Shown piece after piece: positions 3,095 to 35,677 of a stretch of DNA of 35,677 nt; position 1 is the first letter of the stretch, and the number at the start of each line of letters is the position of its first letter. The notes beneath the pieces were generated by a model. It was not told where the DNA came from. It saw only the letters and a program-made list of their open reading frames with translations, and did no database searches. The translations under genes and the position numbers were made by a program. The stretch comes from Ruminococcus sp. (GTDB taxonomy: Bacteria; Bacillota; Clostridia; Oscillospirales; Ruminococcaceae), in the NCBI GenBank assembly GCA_014799675.1, contig JAAVHM010000032.1, positions 1 to 35,677 of the forward strand, read 5' to 3'.

Positions 3095-3275
3095 GACTTT
3101 TTCGCACATTTGTGCAATGTCGTTTCGCACAATTTTTTAAAGAAATTTTGTGCAACCCGCAGAAAAATTTTGGCAAATGAAAAATTACGGGCTCTTGAAT
3201 TGTATTATATTTAGGAACGTGAGACCCGTCCCATACGAAATCCCAAAACACGGAAAATGAAAGGAAATGGTAAAA

Positions 3276-4655
3276 ATGAAAAAAATCTTATGTACCCTTT
3301 TTGCCGCCGCTGTTGTCGCCGCAATGTCTGCAGTAACGGCTTTTGCGGAGGATAATCTTATCTTTATCAAGACCGCGCCCACGCCGAAAGAAGTTACCGA
3401 ATATGCCGAAAAAGAATTTAAGGAACACCCAAACAGAGCATTTATTTTTAAAGGTATCCTTACCGAGGAACAGCAGAAAACGGCGCAGCTTGGCAGCCCG
3501 ATCATTGTAAAGGGAATTTACGATGATGACGATGAAAAAGATTTTATAAGCTGTGATTTTCCTATCATGTGCGGCGGAAAGTTTACCGCATTTATGTCGG
3601 TATCAACTTATGCAGGTATAGGTGGTTTTACTGTGGGTAAGATGGAATTTGAAGACAAGCTGAACAAGCTTGTTACTTCTCCCGCTACGCCTGCGGAAAT
3701 TTACGCCGAGGGCGACAAATTCGGCACAACGTTCGCCGCAGTGGGCGATGAAGTTATCGTACTCCGCAATATGTTCAACGAGGATAAATCCGAACAGATA
3801 GAAGCCCTTAAAAAGCTCCGCTACGAGGATAACCTTGACGAAGAATACGTTATAAACGTTTACGGCTACTCAAAAACTGGCTGGATAACCGTTGACGGCA
3901 GCAAATATTTTATCAGGAAAAACGGAACTCTTGCCACGGGAAACCTCACCATTGGCAGCAAGCGTTACAGATTTGACGAAAACGGCAAATACCTCGGCAC
4001 GTTCACAGGCTTTGTGCGTTCCAGCGGGAAACGCTGCTACTACAAGGACGGAGTAAAGCAGACAGGTGATTTTACAGTAAACGGAAAGCCTTACCGCGCT
4101 GACAAAAACGGAAATATTCTCACGGACGAAAAGCCTGTTTATGTAAAAACCTCACCCGTTCCCGAGGAAGCAGCCGCTTATGCCAAGGATATTTTTGAGA
4201 ACCTCGGCACATACGACCTTACCTCAATCGGTCTTACAAAGGCGGAAGCGAAGTCCGCAAAGCTTGGCAGTCCCTTTGTTATAACAAGCTTATCCTCCGA
4301 CGGCAAGTCCGTTGAAAAGCCGGAAATTTACTACTGCCCTATCCTGTGCGGCGGCGAGACAAGAGCATTTTTAATAGTAAGCAGGCAAGACAGCGGAAAA
4401 TTCGGCTGGCAGTTGGGAATTAATGGTATTGAGGAAAAATTTAACGCTCTCAGCACCTCCTACGGCGACCCTGCGGAGATTTTCTTTGTGGACGGCATTT
4501 GCATAGCCGCAACAAACGCTGGAATGACCGTGCTTTCAAACGTTTCCAATTACGACGCTTCACCGCAGACCGCCGCGCTTGAAAAGTTCCGCAGCAAAAA
4601 TAATTCGGGGGACTTTGTTATCAACGTGTACGGTAATTCAAAGGTGTCTGTATGA
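3276..4655 (+). CDS. Secreted protein with two related domains around wall-binding-type repeats
   Basis: The product has a signal peptide (MKKILCTLFAAAVVAAM...TAFAED, cleavage after about residue 25) and is probably exported to the wall. It contains two homologous domains of about 170 residues. Each begins (I/V)KT(A/S)PxPxE and shares LGSP, CPI(M/L)CGG and a final FVINVYG-type motif. They flank a central block of about 90 residues with choline/cell-wall-binding-type repeats (GWITVDGSKYFIRKNGTLATG, YYKDGVKQTGDFTVNGKPYR). Such repeats (CW_binding_1-like) bind wall polymers or glucan in other proteins. The function of the flanking domain is not recognised. I prefer the ATG at 3276 because AAGG lies about 11 nt upstream; an in-frame ATG at 3267 is only 2 nt from that site. 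It is a single-gene unit ended by the hairpin at 4706. Confidence 0.8.
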   Translation: MKKILCTLFAAAVVAAMSAVTAFAEDNLIFIKTAPTPKEVTEYAEKEFKEHPNRAFIFKGILTEEQQKTAQLGSPIIVKGIYDDDDEKDFISCDFPIMCGGKFTAFMSVSTYAGIGGFTVGKMEFEDKLNKLVTSPATPAEIYAEGDKFGTTFAAVGDEVIVLRNMFNEDKSEQIEALKKLRYEDNLDEEYVINVYGYSKTGWITVDGSKYFIRKNGTLATGNLTIGSKRYRFDENGKYLGTFTGFVRSSGKRCYYKDGVKQTGDFTVNGKPYRADKNGNILTDEKPVYVKTSPVPEEAAAYAKDIFENLGTYDLTSIGLTKAEAKSAKLGSPFVITSLSSDGKSVEKPEIYYCPILCGGETRAFLIVSRQDSGKFGWQLGINGIEEKFNALSTSYGDPAEIFFVDGICIAATNAGMTVLSNVSNYDASPQTAALEKFRSKNNSGDFVINVYGNSKVSV

Positions 4656-4699
4656 TATTTGTTTCATATTTCTGTACTATTTATTAACGATTTATTATT
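4656..4699 (+). repeat. 11-bp tandem array A (4 units)
   Basis: Units TATTTGTTTCA, TATTTCTGTAC, TATTTATTAAC and GATTTATTATT follow one another without a gap, starting at the base after the TGA of the secreted-protein gene and ending shortly before the terminator hairpin. They belong to the same family as the arrays at 7666, 26406 and 34917. Confidence 0.7.
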
Positions 4700-4705
4700 T
4701 CCATT

Positions 4706-4739
4706 TTTCCCGCAGAAATATTTGCGGGAAATTTTTTTT
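4706..4739 (+). terminator. Rho-independent terminator after the secreted-protein gene
   Basis: TTTCCCGCA and TGCGGGAAA form a 9-bp stem with an 8-nt loop, followed directly by eight T residues. This is a strong intrinsic terminator on the plus strand. Confidence 0.9.
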
Positions 4740-6502: not shown

Positions 6503-7146
6503 TGGATTTTATTAACGAAACCAACGCTATCACGGGGCTTGCCGATACTATTATAAAGGGCGGCGTGAGCCTTTACAATGCTATAAAATACATCTATTCC
6601 CTGTCGGAAAGCGATTTTTACAACGTCAACATAAAGGACGCTTTCAAGGTGGTGCTGAACAACATCACCGATTCCGACAGCTTGCAGGCGCTTGGCTTGC
6701 GGATAAACGACGTGACCTGCGGCGAAATGCAGAACGACGAATACAACCGCGTTCTGCCCCTTATTGTGTACTCCTTTGCGGTACGTATCCCCACCCTCAA
6801 AACGGTTCGCGTAAACGACGACTGTATGTCGGACGACCAGCTGTACAAGCTTTACAACACCGTTATGGAAAAGGGCGCGGAGAATTACAACGACCTTATT
6901 GCGGAAACTTTCCTTGAAACAAAATACCTTGTCCGAAAGGGCAAAAAGCTTCCGCCGTTTACTGCGGACTGGTACAAGACTTACATCTACACCTGCGTGC
7001 CGTCTCTGGCGGAAATTACCAATAAAAATATGTTTTTGCTGGGATTTTCGGACGTGCTTTTTGCAATGTTTTACTCCTGCCTTGAGGAGGAGCTGAAAAA
7101 CAAAATGCTTGAATACACCGCCGACCTCCCCGAGGAAACAAAATAA
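6502..7146 (+). CDS. Uncharacterised helical protein coupled to the upstream zinc-knuckle protein
   Basis: A 214-residue soluble protein of unknown function. It begins MDFINETNAITGLADTI and is predicted mostly alpha-helical, with many acidic and aromatic positions and two cysteines near residues 74 and 173. No signal peptide, transmembrane helix or enzyme motif is visible. The start overlaps the stop of the preceding gene by one base and is served by GGAGAG within that gene's 3' end, so expression is coupled. The aroK start follows 19 nt after its stop. The pairing with the DUF6076-like protein suggests a complex or a shared pathway, but nothing in the sequence shows which. Confidence 0.65.
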   Translation: MDFINETNAITGLADTIIKGGVSLYNAIKYIYSLSESDFYNVNIKDAFKVVLNNITDSDSLQALGLRINDVTCGEMQNDEYNRVLPLIVYSFAVRIPTLKTVRVNDDCMSDDQLYKLYNTVMEKGAENYNDLIAETFLETKYLVRKGKKLPPFTADWYKTYIYTCVPSLAEITNKNMFLLGFSDVLFAMFYSCLEEELKNKMLEYTADLPEETK

Positions 7147-7165
7147 AGCAAGAAAAGAAAGAAGC

Positions 7166-7663
7166 ATGATCATGAAAACAATTTATCTTTGCGGATTTAT
7201 GGGCTGCGGAAAAACCACTGTGGGAATGCTCTTAGCGCAAAAGCTGGGCTGTGAATTTTACGATATGGACGAGTATATCGTCCAGAGGGAAAAAATGAAA
7301 ATTCCCGAAATATTTGCGGAAAAGGGAGAAAAATATTTTCGTGAAACGGAAACGGCGGCAATAAAAGAGCTTGCCGAAAAGCATGGAGTTATAGCCTGCG
7401 GAGGCGGCGCAATGCTCAAAAAGGAAAACTCGGAAATAGCTTCGGAAAAGGGAATTGTGGTCTATATAGACGTTCCCTTTGAGGACTGTTATTCCCGAAT
7501 TTCCGGAGACAAAAACCGTCCCATAGTTATGAGCAACACCAAGGAGGAGCTTGAATTTATCTATGACAGCCGCGTGCCGCTTTACAAGGAAAACTCGGGA
7601 CTGACGGTCTCGGGGGACGGTTCGATAATTGAGATTACAGACAGGATAATCAAACAATTATGA
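7166..7663 (+). CDS. aroK: Shikimate kinase
   Basis: It phosphorylates the 3-OH of shikimate with ATP, the fifth step of the shikimate pathway to chorismate and aromatic amino acids, in the cytosol. The 165-residue length is typical. From the ATG at 7166, the P-loop is GFMGCGKT (residues 10-17). The shikimate-binding Asp lies in YDMDEYI (33-35), Arg in FRETE (58-60), and GGGA (79-82) plus the lid sequence DKNRPIV complete the family pattern. The frame stays open upstream to 7109, but those residues overlap the previous gene and have no family match. ATG 7166 and ATG 7172 (MKTIYL) are both possible, with a weak AAAGAAG site. It is last in the operon with the two uncharacterised genes and is followed by array B and a strong terminator. 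Confidence 0.95.
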   Translation: MIMKTIYLCGFMGCGKTTVGMLLAQKLGCEFYDMDEYIVQREKMKIPEIFAEKGEKYFRETETAAIKELAEKHGVIACGGGAMLKKENSEIASEKGIVVYIDVPFEDCYSRISGDKNRPIVMSNTKEELEFIYDSRVPLYKENSGLTVSGDGSIIEITDRIIKQL

Positions 7664-7665
7664 AA

Positions 7666-7698
7666 TATTTACTAACTATTTATAGAATAATTATTAAA
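7666..7698 (+). repeat. 11-bp tandem array B (3 units)
   Basis: Units TATTTACTAAC, TATTTATAGAA and TAATTATTAAA run contiguously from 2 nt after the aroK stop up to the first base of the terminator stem. TATTTACTAAC is identical to a unit in array C at 26450-26460 (minus strand). Confidence 0.7.
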
Positions 7699-7729
7699 GG
7701 ATAGGAATGATATATTCCTATCCTTTTTT
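7699..7729 (+). terminator. Bidirectional terminator between aroK and metH
   Basis: GGATAGGAAT and ATTCCTATCC form a perfect 10-bp stem with a 5-nt loop and six T residues downstream on the plus strand. On the minus strand the stem is followed by TTTAATAATT, so it may also end the converging metH transcript. Confidence 0.85.
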
Positions 7730-12431: not shown

Positions 12432-13226
12432 TTATTTTCTGAATATGTCAAGCGAATGGCTTGTAATTCCCAACAAATCCTCCCGTTCGCAAGTTGCAAA
12501 ATGATACTTCAAAAACAATTCAAAGGTATCGTTATCCATATTATCTACTGCATCACGTATAAGCCGCGCGCAGCCGTCGGTCGCGACATAGTGCAGACGT
12601 GTTACGGGAAATGCCGACATAAGGTTGTCAATATCCTCCTTGCGGACAAGCTCGAACAAGTCCTTGGGTTCGGACGTTGCGGCAAATGTAACAGGGTCAA
12701 GCAGTCCGTTTTTAATGTAGTCGGCAACGCTGAACCCGCCCAGTCTGAAGCCCTCGTCAATAAGACTTCCGTCGGAAATAACATACGCGGCAAAAACGAT
12801 ACCGCCCGGCTTCGTCACGCGAATTGCCTCGCTCAAAGCCTGCCGCTTGTCCTCGTCATTGTAAAGATGATACAGCGGACCCAACAGCAGCGTGATGTCG
12901 TACTGATTATCGGGGAAAGCCGACAAGTCCAAAGCGTTGCCCTGGGTAACGGTTATTTTTTCATCGGGCAGGGTGTTTTTGCGGAAAACCTCAATGTTAT
13001 GCTCCACCAGCTCCACTGCGTCAACAGTATAGCCCTGCCGTGCCAGCGTGTGGGAATACCGTCCCGTTGCCGCGCCTATTTCAAGCACACGGTCGCCCTG
13101 ACGTATGTATTTTTCGATATACCGCATAGTTGTGAGAAACTCCACCGTTCCGTGCTTTAAGGTTGACAGACGGCTGTCCTCGTCGTAAGAACTGTAGAAA
13201 TCTATCAAATACTGATTTGTTTCCAT
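12432..13226 (-). CDS. Class I SAM-dependent methyltransferase, tandem copy A
   Basis: A 264-residue methyltransferase of unknown substrate. Motif I is VLEIGAATGRYS (about residues 46-57). An acidic motif II follows (VDAVELVEHNI), then QGNALDLSAF and the post-motif LLGPLYHLYNDEDKRQALSEA. This pattern is seen in many clostridial UbiE/BioC-like stand-alone methyltransferases. The upstream gene at 13253 is a close paralogue. Residues about 21-145 are nearly identical between the two (three differences by eye) while both ends diverge. The GGAGG site and the flanking ACATTATG are also shared, so the duplication carried the start region with it. Confidence 0.87.
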   Translation of the reverse strand: METNQYLIDFYSSYDEDSRLSTLKHGTVEFLTTMRYIEKYIRQGDRVLEIGAATGRYSHTLARQGYTVDAVELVEHNIEVFRKNTLPDEKITVTQGNALDLSAFPDNQYDITLLLGPLYHLYNDEDKRQALSEAIRVTKPGGIVFAAYVISDGSLIDEGFRLGGFSVADYIKNGLLDPVTFAATSEPKDLFELVRKEDIDNLMSAFPVTRLHYVATDGCARLIRDAVDNMDNDTFELFLKYHFATCEREDLLGITSHSLDIFRK

Positions 13227-13252
13227 AATGTGCCTCCTTAGTAAATTTCCAT

Positions 13253-14044
13253 TTATTTTCTGAATATGTCAAGCGAATGTGTTGTAATTCCCAACAAATC
13301 CTCCCGTTCGCAAGTTGCAAAATGATACCTCAAATACAAGTCAAATGTATCGTTGTCCATGTTATCTATTGCGTCATTCAAAATCGGAGCGCAGCCGTCG
13401 GTTGCAACATAGTGCAGTCGGGTCGTGGGAAACGCCGTCATAAGCTTGTCAATTTTCTCCTTGCGGACAAGCTCGAACAAGTCCTTGGGTTCTGACGTTG
13501 TCTCAAATGTGACAGGGTCAAGCGACCCGTTTTTAATGTAATCGGCAACGCTGTGTTTTCCCTGACGGAAATCATTGAAAAGACAGCCGTCAGATATAAC
13601 ATATGCGGCAAAAATAATACCGCCCTGCTTTGTCACACGAATTGCCTCGCTCAAAGCCTGCCGCTTGTCCTCGTCATTATAAAGATGATACAGCGGACCC
13701 AACAGCAGCGTGATGTCGTACTGATTATCGGGGAAAGCCGACAAATCCAAAGCGTTGCCCTGGATAACGGTTATTTTTTCGTCGGGCAGGGTGTTCTTGC
13801 GGAAAACCTCAATGTTATGCTCCACCAGCTCCACCGCGTCAACAGTGTAGCCCTGCCGTGCCAGCGTGTGGGAATACCGTCCCGTTGCCGCGCCTATTTC
13901 AAGCACACGGTCGCCCTGACGTATGTATTTTTCGATATACCGCATAGTTGTGAGGAACTCCACCGTTCCGTGCTTTGAATCCGCCAGACGGCTGTCCTCG
14001 TCGATAGAATTGTAGAAGTCTATCACGTACTGATTTGTTTCCAT
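13253..14044 (-). CDS. Class I SAM-dependent methyltransferase, tandem copy B
   Basis: A 263-residue paralogue of the product at 12432, sharing motif I VLEIGAATGRYS and the LLGPLYHLYN segment. It differs mainly in the first 20 residues and after residue 145, for example SDGCLFNDFRQGKHS versus SDGSLIDEGFRLGGFS. That region usually contacts the methyl acceptor, so the copies may differ in substrate. GGAGGT lies 6 nt before the ATG. Its own promoter is upstream at 14071-14099, so this gene probably begins a transcription unit that continues through copy A. Confidence 0.87.
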   Translation of the reverse strand: METNQYVIDFYNSIDEDSRLADSKHGTVEFLTTMRYIEKYIRQGDRVLEIGAATGRYSHTLARQGYTVDAVELVEHNIEVFRKNTLPDEKITVIQGNALDLSAFPDNQYDITLLLGPLYHLYNDEDKRQALSEAIRVTKQGGIIFAAYVISDGCLFNDFRQGKHSVADYIKNGSLDPVTFETTSEPKDLFELVRKEKIDKLMTAFPTTRLHYVATDGCAPILNDAIDNMDNDTFDLYLRYHFATCEREDLLGITTHSLDIFRK

Positions 14045-24254: not shown

Positions 24255-26246
24255 TTAAGCTGCAAACTCCTGAAAATTCTCGCTATTTTCTGTGTTTTCA
24301 GAACCTTCAACATTTCCTTCATTTTCAGTATTTTCAACGTTTTCAGTATTTTCGTTATTTTCTACATTTTCAGAATCTTCAACGTTTTCTGTATTTTCGT
24401 TATTTTCTACATTTTCAGAATCTTCAACGTTTTCCGTATTTTCGTTATTTTCAACACTCTCAGTATTTTCAACGTTCTCAACATTTTCAATATCTTCGGT
24501 GTTTTCCGCATTTTCAATATCTTCAACGTTTTCAGAATTTTCTGTATTTTCAAGATCTTCCGTTTCTTCAACTGCATCATCTGAATCTACAAACTTACCA
24601 ATAGGTTCAATATCAAAAGTAATTACCATGTTAAGCATAGCTTGACTTGAATACTGCACGCCCTCAGGAAGCACAGCCCGACCTACGATTTTAAAATATC
24701 CGGTAGTTTCGCCATTTGAACCGTCAGCAAGCGTAAGTATTTCCTTGGACACAGCTTCGCATGAAAATACAAGCTGATTATCACTATTATTATACGTATC
24801 GAAATATACGTTACTCTCATTTGTAGCTTCAATGTAAGCAAACGCAGTAAACTCCGTTTCATTGCCGGTCAAATCATAAGGAGAAATAACCATTCCTCCA
24901 TCAGCCGAAGCCGATGTCGTAGCAACGATCGAAACAGCACAATTACTGTAATTTTTTATAGAATATTCAGGACTTGATATAGAATAGTGAAAACCACTCT
25001 CATCAACGACCTTAAGATTATACGGATTAATTACAACAGAAATCGAAACAGGCAATACCACGCTAATTATAGGATTATCGTCTTCCTCCAAAGCCTCGCT
25101 GTCAGAGTCATCGGGATTTTCCTCATCTGCCGTATTGTCAGAATTTTCTTCATCAGAACTATCATTGTTTTCTTCATCTGCCGCATCGTCAGGGTCATTT
25201 TCATCTGTTATATCGTCTGAATTCTCGCTGTCGGAATCATCGGGATTTTCCTCATCTGTTATATTATCCGAATTCTCATTGTCAGAATTATCGGAATCAT
25301 CTTCGTCTCCTGCATTATCTGAATCCTCAATATCGGAATCATCATTGTTTTCATCATCTGTTGAACTGTCTTCATCTTCTTCGCCGGGATTATCGGAATC
25401 CTCTTCATCCGGTTCACTGTCGGAATCATCGGAAGTTTCAGAGTTTTCATCATCTTCTAAATCTTCATCATCAGATATGATTTCCTCTTCATCTGTAAAA
25501 TCATCACCATATATGATCTCTTCTTCATTTTCATCATCATTGTCTTCGTCGGTATCTCCAATCAAGTCATCGTCTGTAGAGCTATTATCACCTTCGGGCT
25601 GATAATTGTCTTCGGGATTTTCAGGAATTACTATATTATTATAATAGTCATCGGGGAAAATCGGCTTATTGGGATCCACAGGCATTATGTTCTCATTATC
25701 ATTAGAATTTGTAAATTCGTCTGTGTGGTCAACAATAATTTCATCATCGGGATCGCTAAGATTTTCCTCTTCCTTTGAAGTATCATCGGTTTCATTATCA
25801 ACGTTATCAGGCAGATCAGTACCCGCAAGCTCGTCACCGAAGTCATATTCGGAATTGTCGGGAACATTAATATTAATAATAGTACACATATCACAGCAAG
25901 TACCATTACAATTTTCGTCGCAAGCCGCACAGCATATACCATAACAATTATCACTTGGAATAAAAGGGTTTTCCGGTTCTGTATTTTCTGTATAATCAAC
26001 AGAATCTTCATCTTCCGTCACAGCCGGCAGCTCAGTATTGAAACCAAGCGTACTATCAGTACTATCAATATTATCACTATTTTCATCAATGCCGTTTTCA
26101 ACCTCAACATTGACTGCTGTATCATTATCAATTATATCTGTATCATCAGCAAATGCAGTGGCAGGCATTACAAACATTACAGCCAAAGCAAACAGTACTG
26201 CCAATGTAGAATTTCTCAATTTTTTTCTTAAATTAAAGAATTTCAT
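24255..26246 (-). CDS. Highly acidic secreted surface protein with Cys cluster and tripeptide-repeat tail
   Basis: A 663-residue exported protein with no recognised function. The signal peptide is MKFFNLRKKLRN...LAVMFVMPATAFA (about 1-33). A tight cysteine cluster (residues 101-121, pattern C-x3-CC-x2-C-x3-C-x3-CC-x2-C) follows. Residues about 140-400 are a low-complexity Asp/Glu/Ser/Asn stretch. A beta-rich domain (about 395-560, SVVLPVSISVVINPYNLKV, SPEYSIKNYSNCAVSIV) resembles the WxL-like beta-sandwiches seen in clostridial surface proteins. The tail (565-663) repeats a triplet x-E-(N/D), with a 15-residue unit (ENTENVEDSENVENN type) three times over. There is no LPxTG or C-terminal TM, so it may be freely secreted or attach through the beta domain. 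An Asp-rich chain could bind calcium; this is inference. Confidence 0.78.
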   Translation of the reverse strand: MKFFNLRKKLRNSTLAVLFALAVMFVMPATAFADDTDIIDNDTAVNVEVENGIDENSDNIDSTDSTLGFNTELPAVTEDEDSVDYTENTEPENPFIPSDNCYGICCAACDENCNGTCCDMCTIININVPDNSEYDFGDELAGTDLPDNVDNETDDTSKEEENLSDPDDEIIVDHTDEFTNSNDNENIMPVDPNKPIFPDDYYNNIVIPENPEDNYQPEGDNSSTDDDLIGDTDEDNDDENEEEIIYGDDFTDEEEIISDDEDLEDDENSETSDDSDSEPDEEDSDNPGEEDEDSSTDDENNDDSDIEDSDNAGDEDDSDNSDNENSDNITDEENPDDSDSENSDDITDENDPDDAADEENNDSSDEENSDNTADEENPDDSDSEALEEDDNPIISVVLPVSISVVINPYNLKVVDESGFHYSISSPEYSIKNYSNCAVSIVATTSASADGGMVISPYDLTGNETEFTAFAYIEATNESNVYFDTYNNSDNQLVFSCEAVSKEILTLADGSNGETTGYFKIVGRAVLPEGVQYSSQAMLNMVITFDIEPIGKFVDSDDAVEETEDLENTENSENVEDIENAENTEDIENVENVENTESVENNENTENVEDSENVENNENTENVEDSENVENNENTENVENTENEGNVEGSENTENSENFQEFAA
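24320..24460 (-). repeat. Coding tandem repeat in the surface-protein tail
   Basis: A 45-bp unit (15 codons, near ENVENNENTENVEDS) occurs about three times within a longer stretch built on a 9-bp x-E-N triplet. Near-identical DNA (TATTTTCGTTATTTTC-type blocks on the plus strand) makes slippage and length variation likely. Confidence 0.65.
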
Positions 26247-26405: not shown

Positions 26406-26510
26406 TTTAGCAAATAGTATGTAAATTATATATAATTACTTAGTAATTAGTTAGTAAATATTCTGTAATTTCTTAATAAATACAGAATTAAAGTAAATAA
26501 TCGGTAAATT
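26406..26510 (-). repeat. 11-bp tandem array C (7 + 2 units)
   Basis: Reading the minus strand from 26510: AATTTACCGAT and TATTTACTTTA, a 6-nt break (ATTCTG), then seven contiguous units: TATTTATTAAG, AAATTACAGAA, TATTTACTAAC, TAATTACTAAG, TAATTATATAT, AATTTACATAC, TATTTGCTAAA. It lies downstream of the AI-2E permease stop and about 75 bp upstream of the -35 box of the surface-protein promoter. Confidence 0.75.
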
Positions 26511-26527
26511 GTTTCAGAATTTACCGA
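26501..26527 (-). terminator. Possible terminator hairpin after the AI-2E permease gene
   Basis: TCGGTAAATT and AATTTACCGA form a perfect 10-bp stem with a 7-nt loop (CTGAAAC on the minus strand), starting 7 nt after the stop codon region. The following minus-strand bases (TTATTTACTTTAATT) are T-rich but also part of array C, so the hairpin and the array overlap. Confidence 0.5.
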
Positions 26528-26533
26528 TCATAT

Positions 26534-27619
26534 TTATATATTTGCTTTTTCCTCACAGAATATTTTTTCTCGGCAAACTGCGTACAGAACCGACATCACG
26601 GGAACTCCCAAAAGTATTCCCGCTGCGCCGCCTATGCCTGCCCCCAAAAGAATGGCAAGAAGTACCAAAATAGGAGGTATTCCCAAGCTTTTTCCAACCA
26701 CTCGGGGGTAGATGAGATTATTTTCCAACTGCTGCAATACTATTATAAATACCACGAACCACACGGCTTTTATAGGTTTTATCAGAAGTAAAAGAAACGC
26801 CGCGGGAACTGTCCCGATAATCGCTCCAACTACGGGAATAAGCGCGGTTACACCGATTATTGTGCTTATCAGGAGAGCGTACTCGAAACGGAAAAGCTTC
26901 ATGCCGATAAAGCAGAGGACGCCGAGAATGACCGCCTCGGTTATCTGACCGCTGACGAAGCGGCTGAACGTGCTGAAAACCAGTCTGTAGCCGCTGCGTA
27001 GCTTTTCGTAACGCTCCCCCGCAAGTCGTTTTGCGGTGACGGAGACCGCTTTTCTGATATTTTCCTTGTCAATAAGGATATATATGGAAATTACAAAGCC
27101 AATAAGCAGGTCTACCACGCTTCCGATCATGTCGGAGGTCTTGGCATAGGTTGTCCCCAAAATGGCAGGAAGACGTTCCCCCAGACCCGTTACTGCGCTC
27201 TTTAGGGAGGAAAAAATCCCCAGCGTGTCGCGCTTTTCCAATGCGTCGCAGTAGCCTATAAAATTGCTGTAGTAGTAATCGGCGTTGCTGATAAAAAGCT
27301 TCACGCTGGCGGCAAGCTGGGGGACGATTATCCAGACAATTCCAACAGCCAAAGCGGCAAGAAGCAGGTAGGACACCGCCACGGACAGTATAGTCACGCA
27401 CCGACTGCAATTTCTGAACTTTCCCGAAAAAAGCTTCTGGAAGCGGCAAACGGGCATATTCATGACGAACGCAATGGCAAGCCCCAAAAACACGGGCATG
27501 AGGACGTCCAACAGCCTTGAAATAATTCCCATAAAAAATTCGGGCTTTATCACGGCGGCGACTGCTCCCGCTGCCAAAAATACTGCAATTATTATAGTTC
27601 TTACCGTTTTTTTATCCAT
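26534..27619 (-). CDS. AI-2E-family transmembrane permease
   Basis: A 361-residue integral membrane protein of the AI-2E (PerM) family, proposed transporters or ion antiporters, with substrates seldom proven. It has the usual 7-8 hydrophobic segments. The family signatures ALIPVVGAIIGTVPAAFLLL and NNLIYPRVVGKSLGIPPILV, followed by a Gly-rich final pair of helices (GAGIGGAAGILLGVPVMSVLY), are present. A central helical loop (about residues 95-150) contains FISNADYYYSNFIGYCD. The length fits the family. The ATG at 27619 has only GGCGGG as a possible ribosome-binding site, and that lies in a hairpin (27627-27662). Confidence 0.92.
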   Translation of the reverse strand: MDKKTVRTIIIAVFLAAGAVAAVIKPEFFMGIISRLLDVLMPVFLGLAIAFVMNMPVCRFQKLFSGKFRNCSRCVTILSVAVSYLLLAALAVGIVWIIVPQLAASVKLFISNADYYYSNFIGYCDALEKRDTLGIFSSLKSAVTGLGERLPAILGTTYAKTSDMIGSVVDLLIGFVISIYILIDKENIRKAVSVTAKRLAGERYEKLRSGYRLVFSTFSRFVSGQITEAVILGVLCFIGMKLFRFEYALLISTIIGVTALIPVVGAIIGTVPAAFLLLLIKPIKAVWFVVFIIVLQQLENNLIYPRVVGKSLGIPPILVLLAILLGAGIGGAAGILLGVPVMSVLYAVCREKIFCEEKANI

Positions 27620-31742: not shown

Positions 31743-34700
31743 ATGAAGAAAAAATTAATTCTGAACACTTTAAGAAGCGTTAAAAACACGAAGAGCCGAT
31801 TTTTTGCAATTATGGCAATTATTGCTATCGGCTGCGGTTTTTTTGCGGGAGTAAAGTCGGCGGGTCCCGACATGAAGCTAAGCGCGGCGGATTATTTTGA
31901 AAAGCAGGGCTTGGCGGACATACATATGATGTCAGCTCTCGGCTTCGACGACGAGGACGTGACGGCGGTCTCCGACACGGGAATTGCCGATGAGATCTAT
32001 GCGGGATATTCCGCAGACCTTATTATAGAGGGCGGCGACAACAACGGAAAAATTGTCAAGACCTATTCCTATAACAAGGACAGCGGCATTAATTTGCCAT
32101 ATCTTACCGAGGGGCGGCTTCCCGAAAAAGCTGACGAAATCGTGGTGGACGAAAAATTTTACTCGGCTGTCACGCCGAATATCGGCGACAAGATAACCCT
32201 TACTGCCGACGGTGACAACGATATTTCCGATTATCTTTCCCGCGCCGAATTCACCGTTGTGGGAAAAGCCCGTCTGCCTGTTTATGTGGCTTACGACAGG
32301 GGCAGCGCAGGCTTCGGAAACGGCGTTATAAACGGCTGGCTGCTTATTCCCGAGGAAAATTTTTCCTATGATATCTACACGGATATTTATGTACGGCTTT
32401 CGGAAACAGCGGACGTTGACCCATTTACCAATAAATATGAGGAAATTATTGACAGCAGCATTGACCGTCTCGAAGAGCTTGGGGAGGTTCAGATAGAACA
32501 CCGCAAAAACGTAGTTCTTGAGGAAGCTTACGAGGAGATAGACGATGCAAAGGCGGAGGTTGCTGACGGTGAAGCTGAAATTGCTGAAAACGAGCAGAAG
32601 CTTGCTGATGCGGAAAAGGAAATTGCCGACGGCGAGGCGGAAATTTCCGAAAATTTGCAGAAAATTGCCGACGCCGAAAAAGAAATTGCCGACGGTCAGG
32701 AAGAGCTTACAGACAGAGAAATTGAGTACCATGACGGCGAAAGATTTATAAACATAATGAACGGCACTGTAAATTGGATAAACGGAATTATCGATGATTA
32801 CGCTGTCAACGCTGCGGCAAATGAAACGGAGATTTCCGAAAAAATAGAAAGTTACCCCTCCAATGACTTTTTTGCCGTGGACGAAACTTTGCAGCAGCTT
32901 ATAACAGGGTATATGTCCATACCCGCGGCGTATGACGACGGCACGAAATCCGCCTGCGGACAGGGTTTGCGGCAATATTCGGCGGAGCTTTCCGCACAGG
33001 CGCAGGAGTTGGAAACGACCCTTGCAGAGTCAAGAATACAGCTTGACAATGCCAAAGCGGAACTTGACAACGCCCGCGCGGAGGTTGCCGAGGGAAAAGA
33101 AGAAATTGAAAAGGCAAGAACGGAAATTGCTGACGGAAAACAGGAAATCGCGGACGGCAAAAAAGAAATTGCCGACGCAAAAAAGGAAATAGAGGAAGCA
33201 AAAGAGGAAATTGCCGACGCGGAGAGAGAGGCCCACGAGGCTGTTGATGATGCGGAATGGTACGTTTTCGACCGCGACTTCAACCCGTACTACTCCCACT
33301 ATGCGGAGGACTGCGAGCGCGTGGACGCTATCGCGGCGGTGTTCCCTATCTTCTTTATTCTGGTGGCGGCGTTGGTTTGCTGCACCACAATGACCCGAAT
33401 GGTTGAGGAACAGCGTACCCAGATCGGAACGCTGAAAGCCCTCGGTTACAGCAGATTTACCATTATTTCGCAGTACATTCTATACGCTTTGGCGGCAAGC
33501 ATACCCGGCGGGTTTGTGGGGCTTCTGATAGGCTTCAACACGCTTCCCCGAGTAATTTTCGTGTGCTATCAAAGTATGTACACTCAACCTTATCTTATTG
33601 CGAATTTCAAGTGGGATTACGCTATCGGCTGCATTACGGCGGCTTGTCTTTGCACGGGGCTTTCCGCGCTTTACGCAAGCAGGCAGGAACTGGTTTCCTG
33701 TCCCGCCCAGCTTATGCGACCCAAGCCACCAAAGGACGGCAAGCGTATACTATTAGAAAGAATAACCTTTATATGGAAGCGGTTAAAGTTTACCACAAAG
33801 GTAACTTTCCGAAATCTTTTCAGATACAAGGCGCGGCTTCTTATGACAGTTATTGGAATTGCAGGCTGTACGGCTCTTTTGCTGACAGGATTTGGATTAA
33901 AGGAGTCAATTTCGGCGATAGTTGACAGGCAGTACGGCGATATTTTCAGATATGACGCACTTGCGGCTCTGGACGAGGATTCCGGGGCGGAATTTTCCGA
34001 AATAATTTCCGACTGCGAAAGCTCGGGTATCGTTACCGAAAAAATGCTTGTTATGCAGGGTACGGAGGACGTTTGGAGCGATTTATCAAACGGTGAAAAA
34101 TTTGAAGCATATATAATGGTACCCAGCGAAGCGGAGAATTTCAGAAGCTTTATCGACCTGCACACGCGGCAGGGCAAGTCTCCAATTGAGCTTGGAGACG
34201 GGGTTGTGCTTGGTGAAAAGCTTGCAAGATTTCTCGGTGTCAAGGTTGGGGACGAGGTTTATTTTGCGGAAAATAAGCCTATCCGCGTGGACGGAATTTG
34301 CGAAAACTACACCTTTAACTATGCGTACATGAAGCCAGAGACTTACGCAAAGACGGGGCTTGGGGAGTTGAAAAACAATATCCTGCTGATGAATATGACG
34401 GACGAAAACGCAAGCGACCAGCTTTCGGAAGTGCTTTTGGAGCATGAGGCGGTGCTTGGCATAAGCTACTCCAGCGGCGGCGGAGACAAGTTCCGCGACC
34501 TTGTGGACAGCCTTGCGCTGATAGTTGTTGCGATAATCGCTTCGGCGGGGGCGCTGGCGTTTGTGGTACTGTTCAATCTTTCCAACATCAACGTGAACGA
34601 GCGTATCAGGGAGCTTGCCACCATAAAGGTTCTTGGCTTTTTCGACGGCGAGGTTGCGGCGTACATATATCGTGAGAACATTCTCTCCACTATAATGGGT

Positions 34701-34913
34701 ACGGGCGCGGGACTTATACTGGGAATTTTCCTTGAAAAATTTGTAGTGCAGACCGCCGAGGTCGACGCGGTAATGTTTGCCCCGGGAATTGCGGCGTACT
34801 GCTTCTTTGCGGCGGCGGCAATAAGCGTATTCTTCTCGGTTTTGGTGAATATTACGCTGTATTTCAGGCTTAAAAAGATAGATATGGCGACGTCCTTAAA
34901 GGCTATAGAGTAA
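31743..34913 (+). CDS. FtsX-type ABC transporter permease with large extracellular coiled coil
   Basis: A 1056-residue permease. A first TM helix lies near residues 19-38. A long extracellular part follows, containing Asp/Glu/Ala/Lys-rich coiled-coil arms (about 265-335 and 418-496, repeats such as ADAEKEIADGEAEI and AKKEIADAKKEIEEAKEE) joined by a small central helical region. The first FtsX core (about 525-650, FPIFFILVAALVCC, TLKALGYSRFTI) and the second (about 915-1056, SNINVNERIRELATIKVLGFF) carry the transmembrane parts. Coiled-coil arms of this kind reach from the membrane into the wall in other FtsX-like proteins, suggesting mechanotransmission. AAGG lies 5 nt before the ATG. The substrate is unknown. 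Confidence 0.88.
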   Translation: MKKKLILNTLRSVKNTKSRFFAIMAIIAIGCGFFAGVKSAGPDMKLSAADYFEKQGLADIHMMSALGFDDEDVTAVSDTGIADEIYAGYSADLIIEGGDNNGKIVKTYSYNKDSGINLPYLTEGRLPEKADEIVVDEKFYSAVTPNIGDKITLTADGDNDISDYLSRAEFTVVGKARLPVYVAYDRGSAGFGNGVINGWLLIPEENFSYDIYTDIYVRLSETADVDPFTNKYEEIIDSSIDRLEELGEVQIEHRKNVVLEEAYEEIDDAKAEVADGEAEIAENEQKLADAEKEIADGEAEISENLQKIADAEKEIADGQEELTDREIEYHDGERFINIMNGTVNWINGIIDDYAVNAAANETEISEKIESYPSNDFFAVDETLQQLITGYMSIPAAYDDGTKSACGQGLRQYSAELSAQAQELETTLAESRIQLDNAKAELDNARAEVAEGKEEIEKARTEIADGKQEIADGKKEIADAKKEIEEAKEEIADAEREAHEAVDDAEWYVFDRDFNPYYSHYAEDCERVDAIAAVFPIFFILVAALVCCTTMTRMVEEQRTQIGTLKALGYSRFTIISQYILYALAASIPGGFVGLLIGFNTLPRVIFVCYQSMYTQPYLIANFKWDYAIGCITAACLCTGLSALYASRQELVSCPAQLMRPKPPKDGKRILLERITFIWKRLKFTTKVTFRNLFRYKARLLMTVIGIAGCTALLLTGFGLKESISAIVDRQYGDIFRYDALAALDEDSGAEFSEIISDCESSGIVTEKMLVMQGTEDVWSDLSNGEKFEAYIMVPSEAENFRSFIDLHTRQGKSPIELGDGVVLGEKLARFLGVKVGDEVYFAENKPIRVDGICENYTFNYAYMKPETYAKTGLGELKNNILLMNMTDENASDQLSEVLLEHEAVLGISYSSGGGDKFRDLVDSLALIVVAIIASAGALAFVVLFNLSNINVNERIRELATIKVLGFFDGEVAAYIYRENILSTIMGTGAGLILGIFLEKFVVQTAEVDAVMFAPGIAAYCFFAAAAISVFFSVLVNITLYFRLKKIDMATSLKAIE

Positions 34914-34916
34914 GTT

Positions 34917-34982
34917 TATTTGCAGATTATTTACAGAATATTTATAGACCATTTGCTGAATATTTATGTATTATTTGCTAAC
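34917..34982 (+). repeat. 11-bp tandem array D (6 units)
   Basis: Six contiguous units beginning 3 nt after the permease TAA: TATTTGCAGAT, TATTTACAGAA, TATTTATAGAC, CATTTGCTGAA, TATTTATGTAT, TATTTGCTAAC. The array ends 24 bp before the ATG at 35007, so it also occupies the upstream region of the PASTA/SxxK gene. Confidence 0.75.
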
Positions 34983-35006: not shown

Positions 35007-35677
35007 ATGAATTACAGACGGGAAAAAATCATCAGAATAATTGTAATTATCGTTTCCTTTGCGATTATTATTGGGATTACACTGTACATTTTCTTTAAAC
35101 CCGCAAAGCTGCCTGATTATGAAATCGGCGTTATGCCGAATATAGTGGGTTACAGCTATATGGAAGTTCGTAATTACTACTCACAACAGTTTGACCTTGA
35201 AGTGACGGGAGAAGATTACTCCGAAGAATTTCCCGACGGAGCAATTTTGTCACAAATTCCTGCTGAAGGGTTAGAGTATCTCGTTGGAAACACAACAGTA
35301 AAAGTCACCGTCAGCAAGGGCGCAAAGCCTGTTGAGCCAACGGTTACAGAGGTAACTGTTACAGAGGAAATTCCAACCAAGACGGAAACAGAGGTTACCG
35401 AGGAAATTCAGCGGGTAGACGGTCCGATAGAAAACCCCGAAGCGGCGTTTGAACACAATTATCCCGAAATGGAACTGGAGCTTACTGCCGTGGGAATGGA
35501 AATCCCCGACAGCGCAAAGGAGCTTGCGGACGAGTTGTACGCTGTTCTGCGGCGGCACGGCGCGGACGCGGGGTTTCTTTACTACAACCCTCACACGGGG
35601 GGAAGTCTCGAATACAATGCGGACGAAAAGTTTTCCTCGGGAAGTATCATAAAGGCGATCTATGCGCGGAGTATTCT
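35007..35677 (+). CDS. PASTA plus SxxK-hydrolase (class A beta-lactamase-like) protein, 5' part
   Basis: The window holds the first 223 residues of an envelope enzyme that continues beyond the edge. An N-terminal TM anchor (about 9-30, IIRIIVIIVSFAIIIGITLYIF) is followed by one PASTA-like domain (about 42-107: VMPNIVGYSYMEVRNYY, AILSQIPAEGLEYLVGNTTVKVTVSKG). A Thr/Glu/Val-rich linker leads into a serine-hydrolase domain with DAGFLYYNPHTGGS and SGSIIKAIYA, where S-x-x-K would be the catalytic Ser-Lys. This fits a class A beta-lactamase-type or D-Ala-D-Ala peptidase fold. PASTA domains often bind muropeptides or beta-lactams. A GGGGGAATTTT site precedes the ATG. Whether it is a hydrolase or a sensor needs the missing C terminus. 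Confidence 0.82.
   Translation, partial: MNYRREKIIRIIVIIVSFAIIIGITLYIFFKPAKLPDYEIGVMPNIVGYSYMEVRNYYSQQFDLEVTGEDYSEEFPDGAILSQIPAEGLEYLVGNTTVKVTVSKGAKPVEPTVTEVTVTEEIPTKTETEVTEEIQRVDGPIENPEAAFEHNYPEMELELTAVGMEIPDSAKELADELYAVLRRHGADAGFLYYNPHTGGSLEYNADEKFSSGSIIKAIYARSI

Follow-up and report, generated by a model that had tools for sequence, protein, structure and literature searches.

Lineage-restricted arrays of 11-bp direct repeats at Ruminococcus gene junctions, tentatively read as rows of protein-binding sites

The window, meaning the whole analysed stretch of 35,677 nt, is part of contig C32 of a 2.24-Mb Ruminococcus draft genome (G000). Four arrays of tandem 11-bp units (A to D) are present in it with an 11-bp step, as seen by eye and in a tandem profile scan that recovered all four; arrays C and D were also detected by Tandem Repeats Finder. 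At the gathering score, a small SRP RNA was the sole Rfam match in the window, and the arrays had no match. Genes without a Pfam match were called as the longest open reading frame, and the start codon of aroK was picked within a longer frame (7109-7663). The arrays and their neighbours are listed by position and strand.

3267..4655, + strand: choline/cell-wall-binding repeat gene, upstream of array A (Pfam PF19127, PF01473)
4656..4699, + strand: array A, four units, TATTTGTTTCA TATTTCTGTAC TATTTATTAAC GATTTATTATT in order, immediately 3' of the stop codon of the cell-wall-binding-repeat gene
4706..4739, + strand: terminator-like hairpin and T tract just 3' of array A, from the sequence
7169..7663, + strand: aroK, shikimate kinase, upstream of array B (Pfam PF01202)
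7666..7698, + strand: array B, three units, after the aroK stop
7699..7729, + strand: terminator-like hairpin and T tract just 3' of array B, from the sequence
26406..26482, - strand: array C core, seven units, between the end of the AI-2E transporter gene and the promoter region of a gene for an acidic secreted-type protein
26499..26528, - strand: terminator-like inverted repeat between the AI-2E gene and array C, from the sequence
26534..27619, - strand: AI-2E family transporter gene, upstream of array C (Pfam PF01594)
31743..34913, + strand: FtsX/MacB-type ABC permease gene, upstream of array D (Pfam PF02687, PF12704)
34917..34982, + strand: array D, six units, taking up most of the space from the permease gene to the PASTA-domain gene
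35007..35677, + strand: PASTA-domain protein gene, downstream of array D and running off the window (Pfam PF03793)

An earlier note on this DNA had described four arrays, with array C reaching 26510, all lying directly behind a stop codon in an exact 11-bp period. Positions and stop-codon contact hold for arrays A, B, and D, which begin 0-3 nt from the stop, and array B has four units if the in-register stretch 7655-7665 at the end of aroK is included. Array C is supported over seven units only up to 26482; its tail is weak, and the last presumed unit, AATTTACCGAT, is one arm of the inverted repeat (arms at about 26499-26510 and 26518-26528), which resembles a terminator for the AI-2E gene. 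The array starts 51 nt past the AI-2E stop, behind this terminator-like hairpin, and by reading, a candidate promoter of the next gene (TTGACA-N18-TATACT) lies about 75 bp downstream of it. The step of 11 bp was found at all four arrays, while some arrays of the family contain a single 10-bp step.

The gene beside array C (24255-26246) encodes a very acidic secreted-type protein with coding repeats of 27, 45, and 72 bp and no Pfam match. At 12432-14044, two neighbouring, highly similar methyltransferase-like genes appear by eye to be a tandem duplication, and the stretch around them is rich in acetyltransferase-like genes.

Four arrays in the window scored ≥16, compared with one in total over 100 local, dinucleotide-preserving shuffles at the same cut-off. 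With the profile built from the window, five further arrays were identified in 800 kb of the own genome (0-2 in shuffles) and 15 in 117 kb of G015, a Ruminococcus MAG (0 in shuffles); as the G015 stretches, like those of G020, were selected by pattern matches, the unbiased figure for G015 comes from the whole-genome count relative to the reversed pattern, given below. Over all sampled stretches, 26 arrays scored ≥20 at step 11 against 0 to 5 at steps 8-10 and 12-18, and the five at step 14 probably stem from a separate 7-bp repeat. The spacing between strong single units, for which arrays were not preselected, peaked at 11, where 52 pairs stood against 4 at 10 and 5 at 12, and again at 22, 33, 44, and 55; a second peak, at 7 and 14, comes from the 7-bp repeat. 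That the arrays are a chance cluster or a low-complexity artefact in AT-rich DNA between genes would agree with the profile scan of the first 213 kb of the own genome outside the window, which held no comparable array, although the wider sample had some. The shuffles, the step and reversed-pattern controls, and the orthologous positions described below refute this reading, which we regard as virtually impossible. The arrays are real and the positions within their units are constrained; the excess over matched controls (shuffles, other steps, reversed pattern) that had been proposed as a check was found.

The arrays consist of 3-7 direct repeats with the consensus T-A-T-T-T-R-Y-D-R-A-N, and 140 units gave 8.1 bits against an AT-rich background, with constraint read from the variation across units. 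T occurred at positions 4 and 5 in 96 and 93% of units, respectively, a pyrimidine at position 7 in 98%, and A at position 10 in 89%, position 11 being nearly free; because the profile was refined on arrays found with it, these unit statistics lean towards the consensus. AAA at positions 8-10 was observed 3 times against 19 expected, and the final unit tends to end in TAA (GCTAA in 9, ATTAA in 7, and CTTAA in 2 of 27). Unit identity was 0.580 within an array and 0.583 between loci, which, together with the constrained positions, fits selected sites and not fresh local duplication. Local tandem duplication was rejected as the only recent origin on the same ground, the similarity of units being no higher inside one array than across loci. 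Unit order was partly kept in orthologous arrays, where 6 of 500 shuffles attained the score of the real order. For unrelated loci the order test was negative (93 of 200 shuffles), so that whole-array copying was rejected as well; one unrelated pair, the pilX and permease arrays of G015, looked alike in unit order (7 of 200 shuffles).

Whole-genome counts of a three-unit pattern over its reversed control were highest in G015 and the own genome, with 34 versus 3 and 19 versus 1, respectively. G020 and G018 followed with 6 versus 0 each and G011 with 4 versus 0, and counts in the other congeners were near the control. Some matches in G011, G016, and G018 resemble real arrays, including those near secA and purA in G016 and G018. 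Few others among 297 genomes of the family exceeded the control, and those inspected carried a different unit, mostly upstream of genes. The matches listed in a wider scan of genome contigs were mostly perfect 11-bp minisatellites and chance matches; at least two among them were clear members of the array family, both from Ruminococcus sp. NALB_7823_30, which is taken as G015. The arrays are thus a lineage-restricted family of a few related Ruminococcus species. In the pattern scan of viral contigs, no member of the array family was recognised among the matches.

Other 11-bp rows appeared in these scans. G023 and G304, of a genus with 28% GC in the same family, carry rows of four TTTGTTAAY repeats, mostly upstream of genes (L333-L340), which look like ordinary regulator sites. 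Four viral contigs (L264, L280, L281, and L287) carry heterogeneous rows of 6 to 13 AATTTGTRAAC units that could be replication or regulator sites.

At least six array positions are common to two or three species, namely those at the cell-wall-binding gene, aroK, the permease gene, and the lipoprotein-pilC, pilC-pilX, and ybaB-recR junctions. In G015, array A corresponds to six units after the same gene (L124:13333-13398), array B to L124:16442-16507, and array D to five units after the same permease gene (L126:13894-13948). The antisense array at pilC-pilX aligns over four sequences from three species, with the end units conserved, and two indels, one of exactly 11 nt and one of 1 nt, separate the ybaB-recR arrays of G015 and G020. 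Position and period are therefore kept in related species, as the earlier note had asked to see. The relA array occurs in G015 only. The spacer between the transglutaminase-like lipoprotein gene and pilC measures about 15 nt in G001, G016, and G018 and 70 nt in G015, where it is made up of a 55-nt array and 15 nt; this comparison of spacer sequences shows that the array was gained by insertion at that junction. At aroK (G001, G006, G016, and G018), pilC-pilX, and ybaB-recR, too, there are relatives that lack the array and have a shorter spacer or a different one.

The majority of arrays occupy the interval that runs from a stop codon to either a terminator or the following gene's ribosome-binding site. 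Many abut the stop codon at 0-8 nt, in sense orientation at about 12 loci and in antisense at 3 in a tally made by eye, the antisense loci being pilC-pilX, a response-regulator gene, and an oxidoreductase locus. Abutment is partly forced in short operon gaps that the array fills; it is informative where the gap is longer, namely at the cell-wall-binding gene, at ybaB-recR, and, in G015, at the PASTA gene. No abutment was found at array C, secA, or prmA, and the prmA array lies between divergent genes. G000 holds roughly ten arrays on five contigs, with four on one contig; four or more on one contig has a probability of about 6e-5 under random placement, computed with the retrieved lengths of 61 stretches and the mean for the rest. 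A cluster near the replication origin may be doubted, since dnaA lies on other contigs of the draft genome.

We tentatively read the arrays as lineage-specific inserted rows of one-turn binding sites for a putative protein, with a probability of about 0.42. The arrays would have entered gene junctions by insertion in an ancestor shared by a small Ruminococcus group, and their units would form tandem sites for a DNA-binding protein that binds cooperatively, as regulators of the ArcA/OmpR/PhoB type do on rows of 11-bp direct repeats. Of the three readings first proposed from the sequence (a regulator-binding series, a phased bend, and a 3' RNA element), the regulator-binding series fits best given the one-turn direct repeats, the position-specific constraint, and the presence of both orientations. 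An ordinary regulon is unlikely because the neighbouring genes have no common pathway and most arrays lie off promoters. As the arrays are found mostly at unrelated gene ends and on few contigs, our guess is that a bound protein would more probably insulate gene ends, form a roadblock, or organise the chromosome locally than serve as a classical promoter regulator. The stronger version, a dedicated array-binding protein that labels the ends of genes in one chromosomal region as an insulator or domain organiser, a previously undescribed kind of non-promoter operator system, is quite unlikely. A role in DNA alone leaves the sense bias unexplained.

Several known systems resemble the arrays in part. 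The parC site of plasmid R1 contains rows of about five 11-bp direct repeats (iterons) that are bound by ParR. The arrays share the row of 11-bp direct repeats with parC but are dispersed over the chromosome, whereas parC is one locus beside parMR; the ParM-type actin profile PF06406 matched in 0 of 21 genomes of the genus and gave no match in the control genomes either. The direct-repeat element of E. coli ArcA, of the OmpR/PhoB family, is a degenerate element with 7.6 bits and an 11-bp step that occurs as 3-5 elements at most sites (PMC3798270). With about 8 bits, one-turn direct repeats, and a degenerate element with position-specific conservation, the arrays resemble such operators. ArcA sites, however, lie at regulated promoters, while the Ruminococcus arrays have up to 7 units and are mostly placed at unrelated gene ends, with array C and the prmA array as possible exceptions, and membership of the ArcA type is not claimed on account of this placement. 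A search for an OmpR-type regulator with a matching motif had also been suggested. One OmpR-type candidate, the Pho box of the genus (core TTHAYA-N5-TTHAYA), reads TTTACA-N5-TTTACA and TTTACA-N5-TTAACA at the pst loci of G015 and G001, respectively; its unit differs from that of the arrays, and no array-unit pair scored ≥12 at these loci. The TAACTGA heptamers of Beggiatoaceae and cyanobacteria are intergenic direct repeats of 2-6 copies in Maribeggiatoa and likewise stand at junctions between unrelated genes, in some cases overlapping the stop codon (PMC4679880). They differ in having a period of 7 and identical units mostly just before start codons, as opposed to a period of 11, degenerate units (58% identity), and positions mostly after stops.

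The main rival remains a passive dispersed extragenic repeat of REP-like kind, inserted or expanded at gene ends where it does little damage and having no sequence-specific partner. A functionless, insertion-born repeat could give much of the pattern, including the restriction to one lineage, the insertion into a short spacer at lipoprotein-pilC, the presence or absence by species as for the relA array in G015 only, the independence from neighbour function, and the clustering (P of about 6e-5); a second short-tandem element (TAATTRT heptads) also sits at junctions of the own genome. REP/BIME elements are likewise extragenic, lineage-specific, and in part located no more than 15 nt from a stop codon (PMC12306157), but they are folding, hairpin-forming palindromes, while the arrays are direct repeats without a fold. 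The copies of the array family moreover share neither unit order nor flanks, whereas the 7-bp element is near-identical between copies, and constraint differs sharply among unit positions, which is not expected from neutral decay. We consider a passive repeat rather unlikely.

Phased bending, in which T-tracts every 11 bp would curve the DNA and help to package the nucleoid or to place supercoils at gene ends, draws on a predicted curvature above shuffles (mean z 1.9, computed from wedge values), on an AAA/TTT period of about 11.3 bp outside the arrays in the own genome and G015, and on the avoidance of AAA half a turn away. Two papers describe a period of ~11 bp as usual in bacterial genomes (PMC4132750, PMC516772). 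The order within positions 6-11, however, adds little curvature (mean z 0.43 in within-unit permutation, 17 of 27 positive), the predicted 12 degrees per turn are below half of the 26 degrees of a phased A5 reference, and T-tracts alone leave the purine-pyrimidine constraint at positions 6-7 unexplained, making a bend improbable as the main role. If the units instead acted in mRNA, as tandem sites after the stop for a putative RNA-binding protein that influences termination, decay, or how the next gene is translated, the sense bias of ~12 to 3 loci and the abutment of stop codons would follow, and arrays A and B do lie within transcripts, between the stop and a terminator-like hairpin. A REP element located no more than 15 nt from a stop can reduce translation (PMC12306157). 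A 3' RNA element is nevertheless decidedly improbable, as the antisense copies at pilC-pilX are conserved in three species, array C lies behind a terminator-like hairpin, and the prmA array lies between divergent genes. RNA hairpins between units were rejected, as no fold signal was found (mean z -0.47 in sense and 0.09 in antisense).

If a protein binds the arrays, they would represent multi-site one-turn binding at gene ends rather than at promoters; if none does, they are a clear case of a family of extragenic repeats kept in 11-bp register. Junctions that gained an array and those where close relatives kept the short spacer form a natural before/after comparison, in which the effect of an array on termination, read-through, and operon coupling is directly testable.

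The second short-tandem element of the own genome, TAATTATTAATTGTTAATTATTAATTA, consists of four heptads and occurs in near-identical copies at gene junctions, several of them just before a ribosome-binding site. Ten copies were present in 835 kb of the own genome and none in 117 kb of G015. They are located at L010:5077, L013:2688, L028:10864, L036:2041, L038:7606, L056:2268, L058:4767, L061:11230, and L137:10696 and 10821. Between secA and the next gene in G016 (L130), a 7-bp GAGTTRA repeat stands beside the 11-bp array, and most of this repeat is missing in G018.
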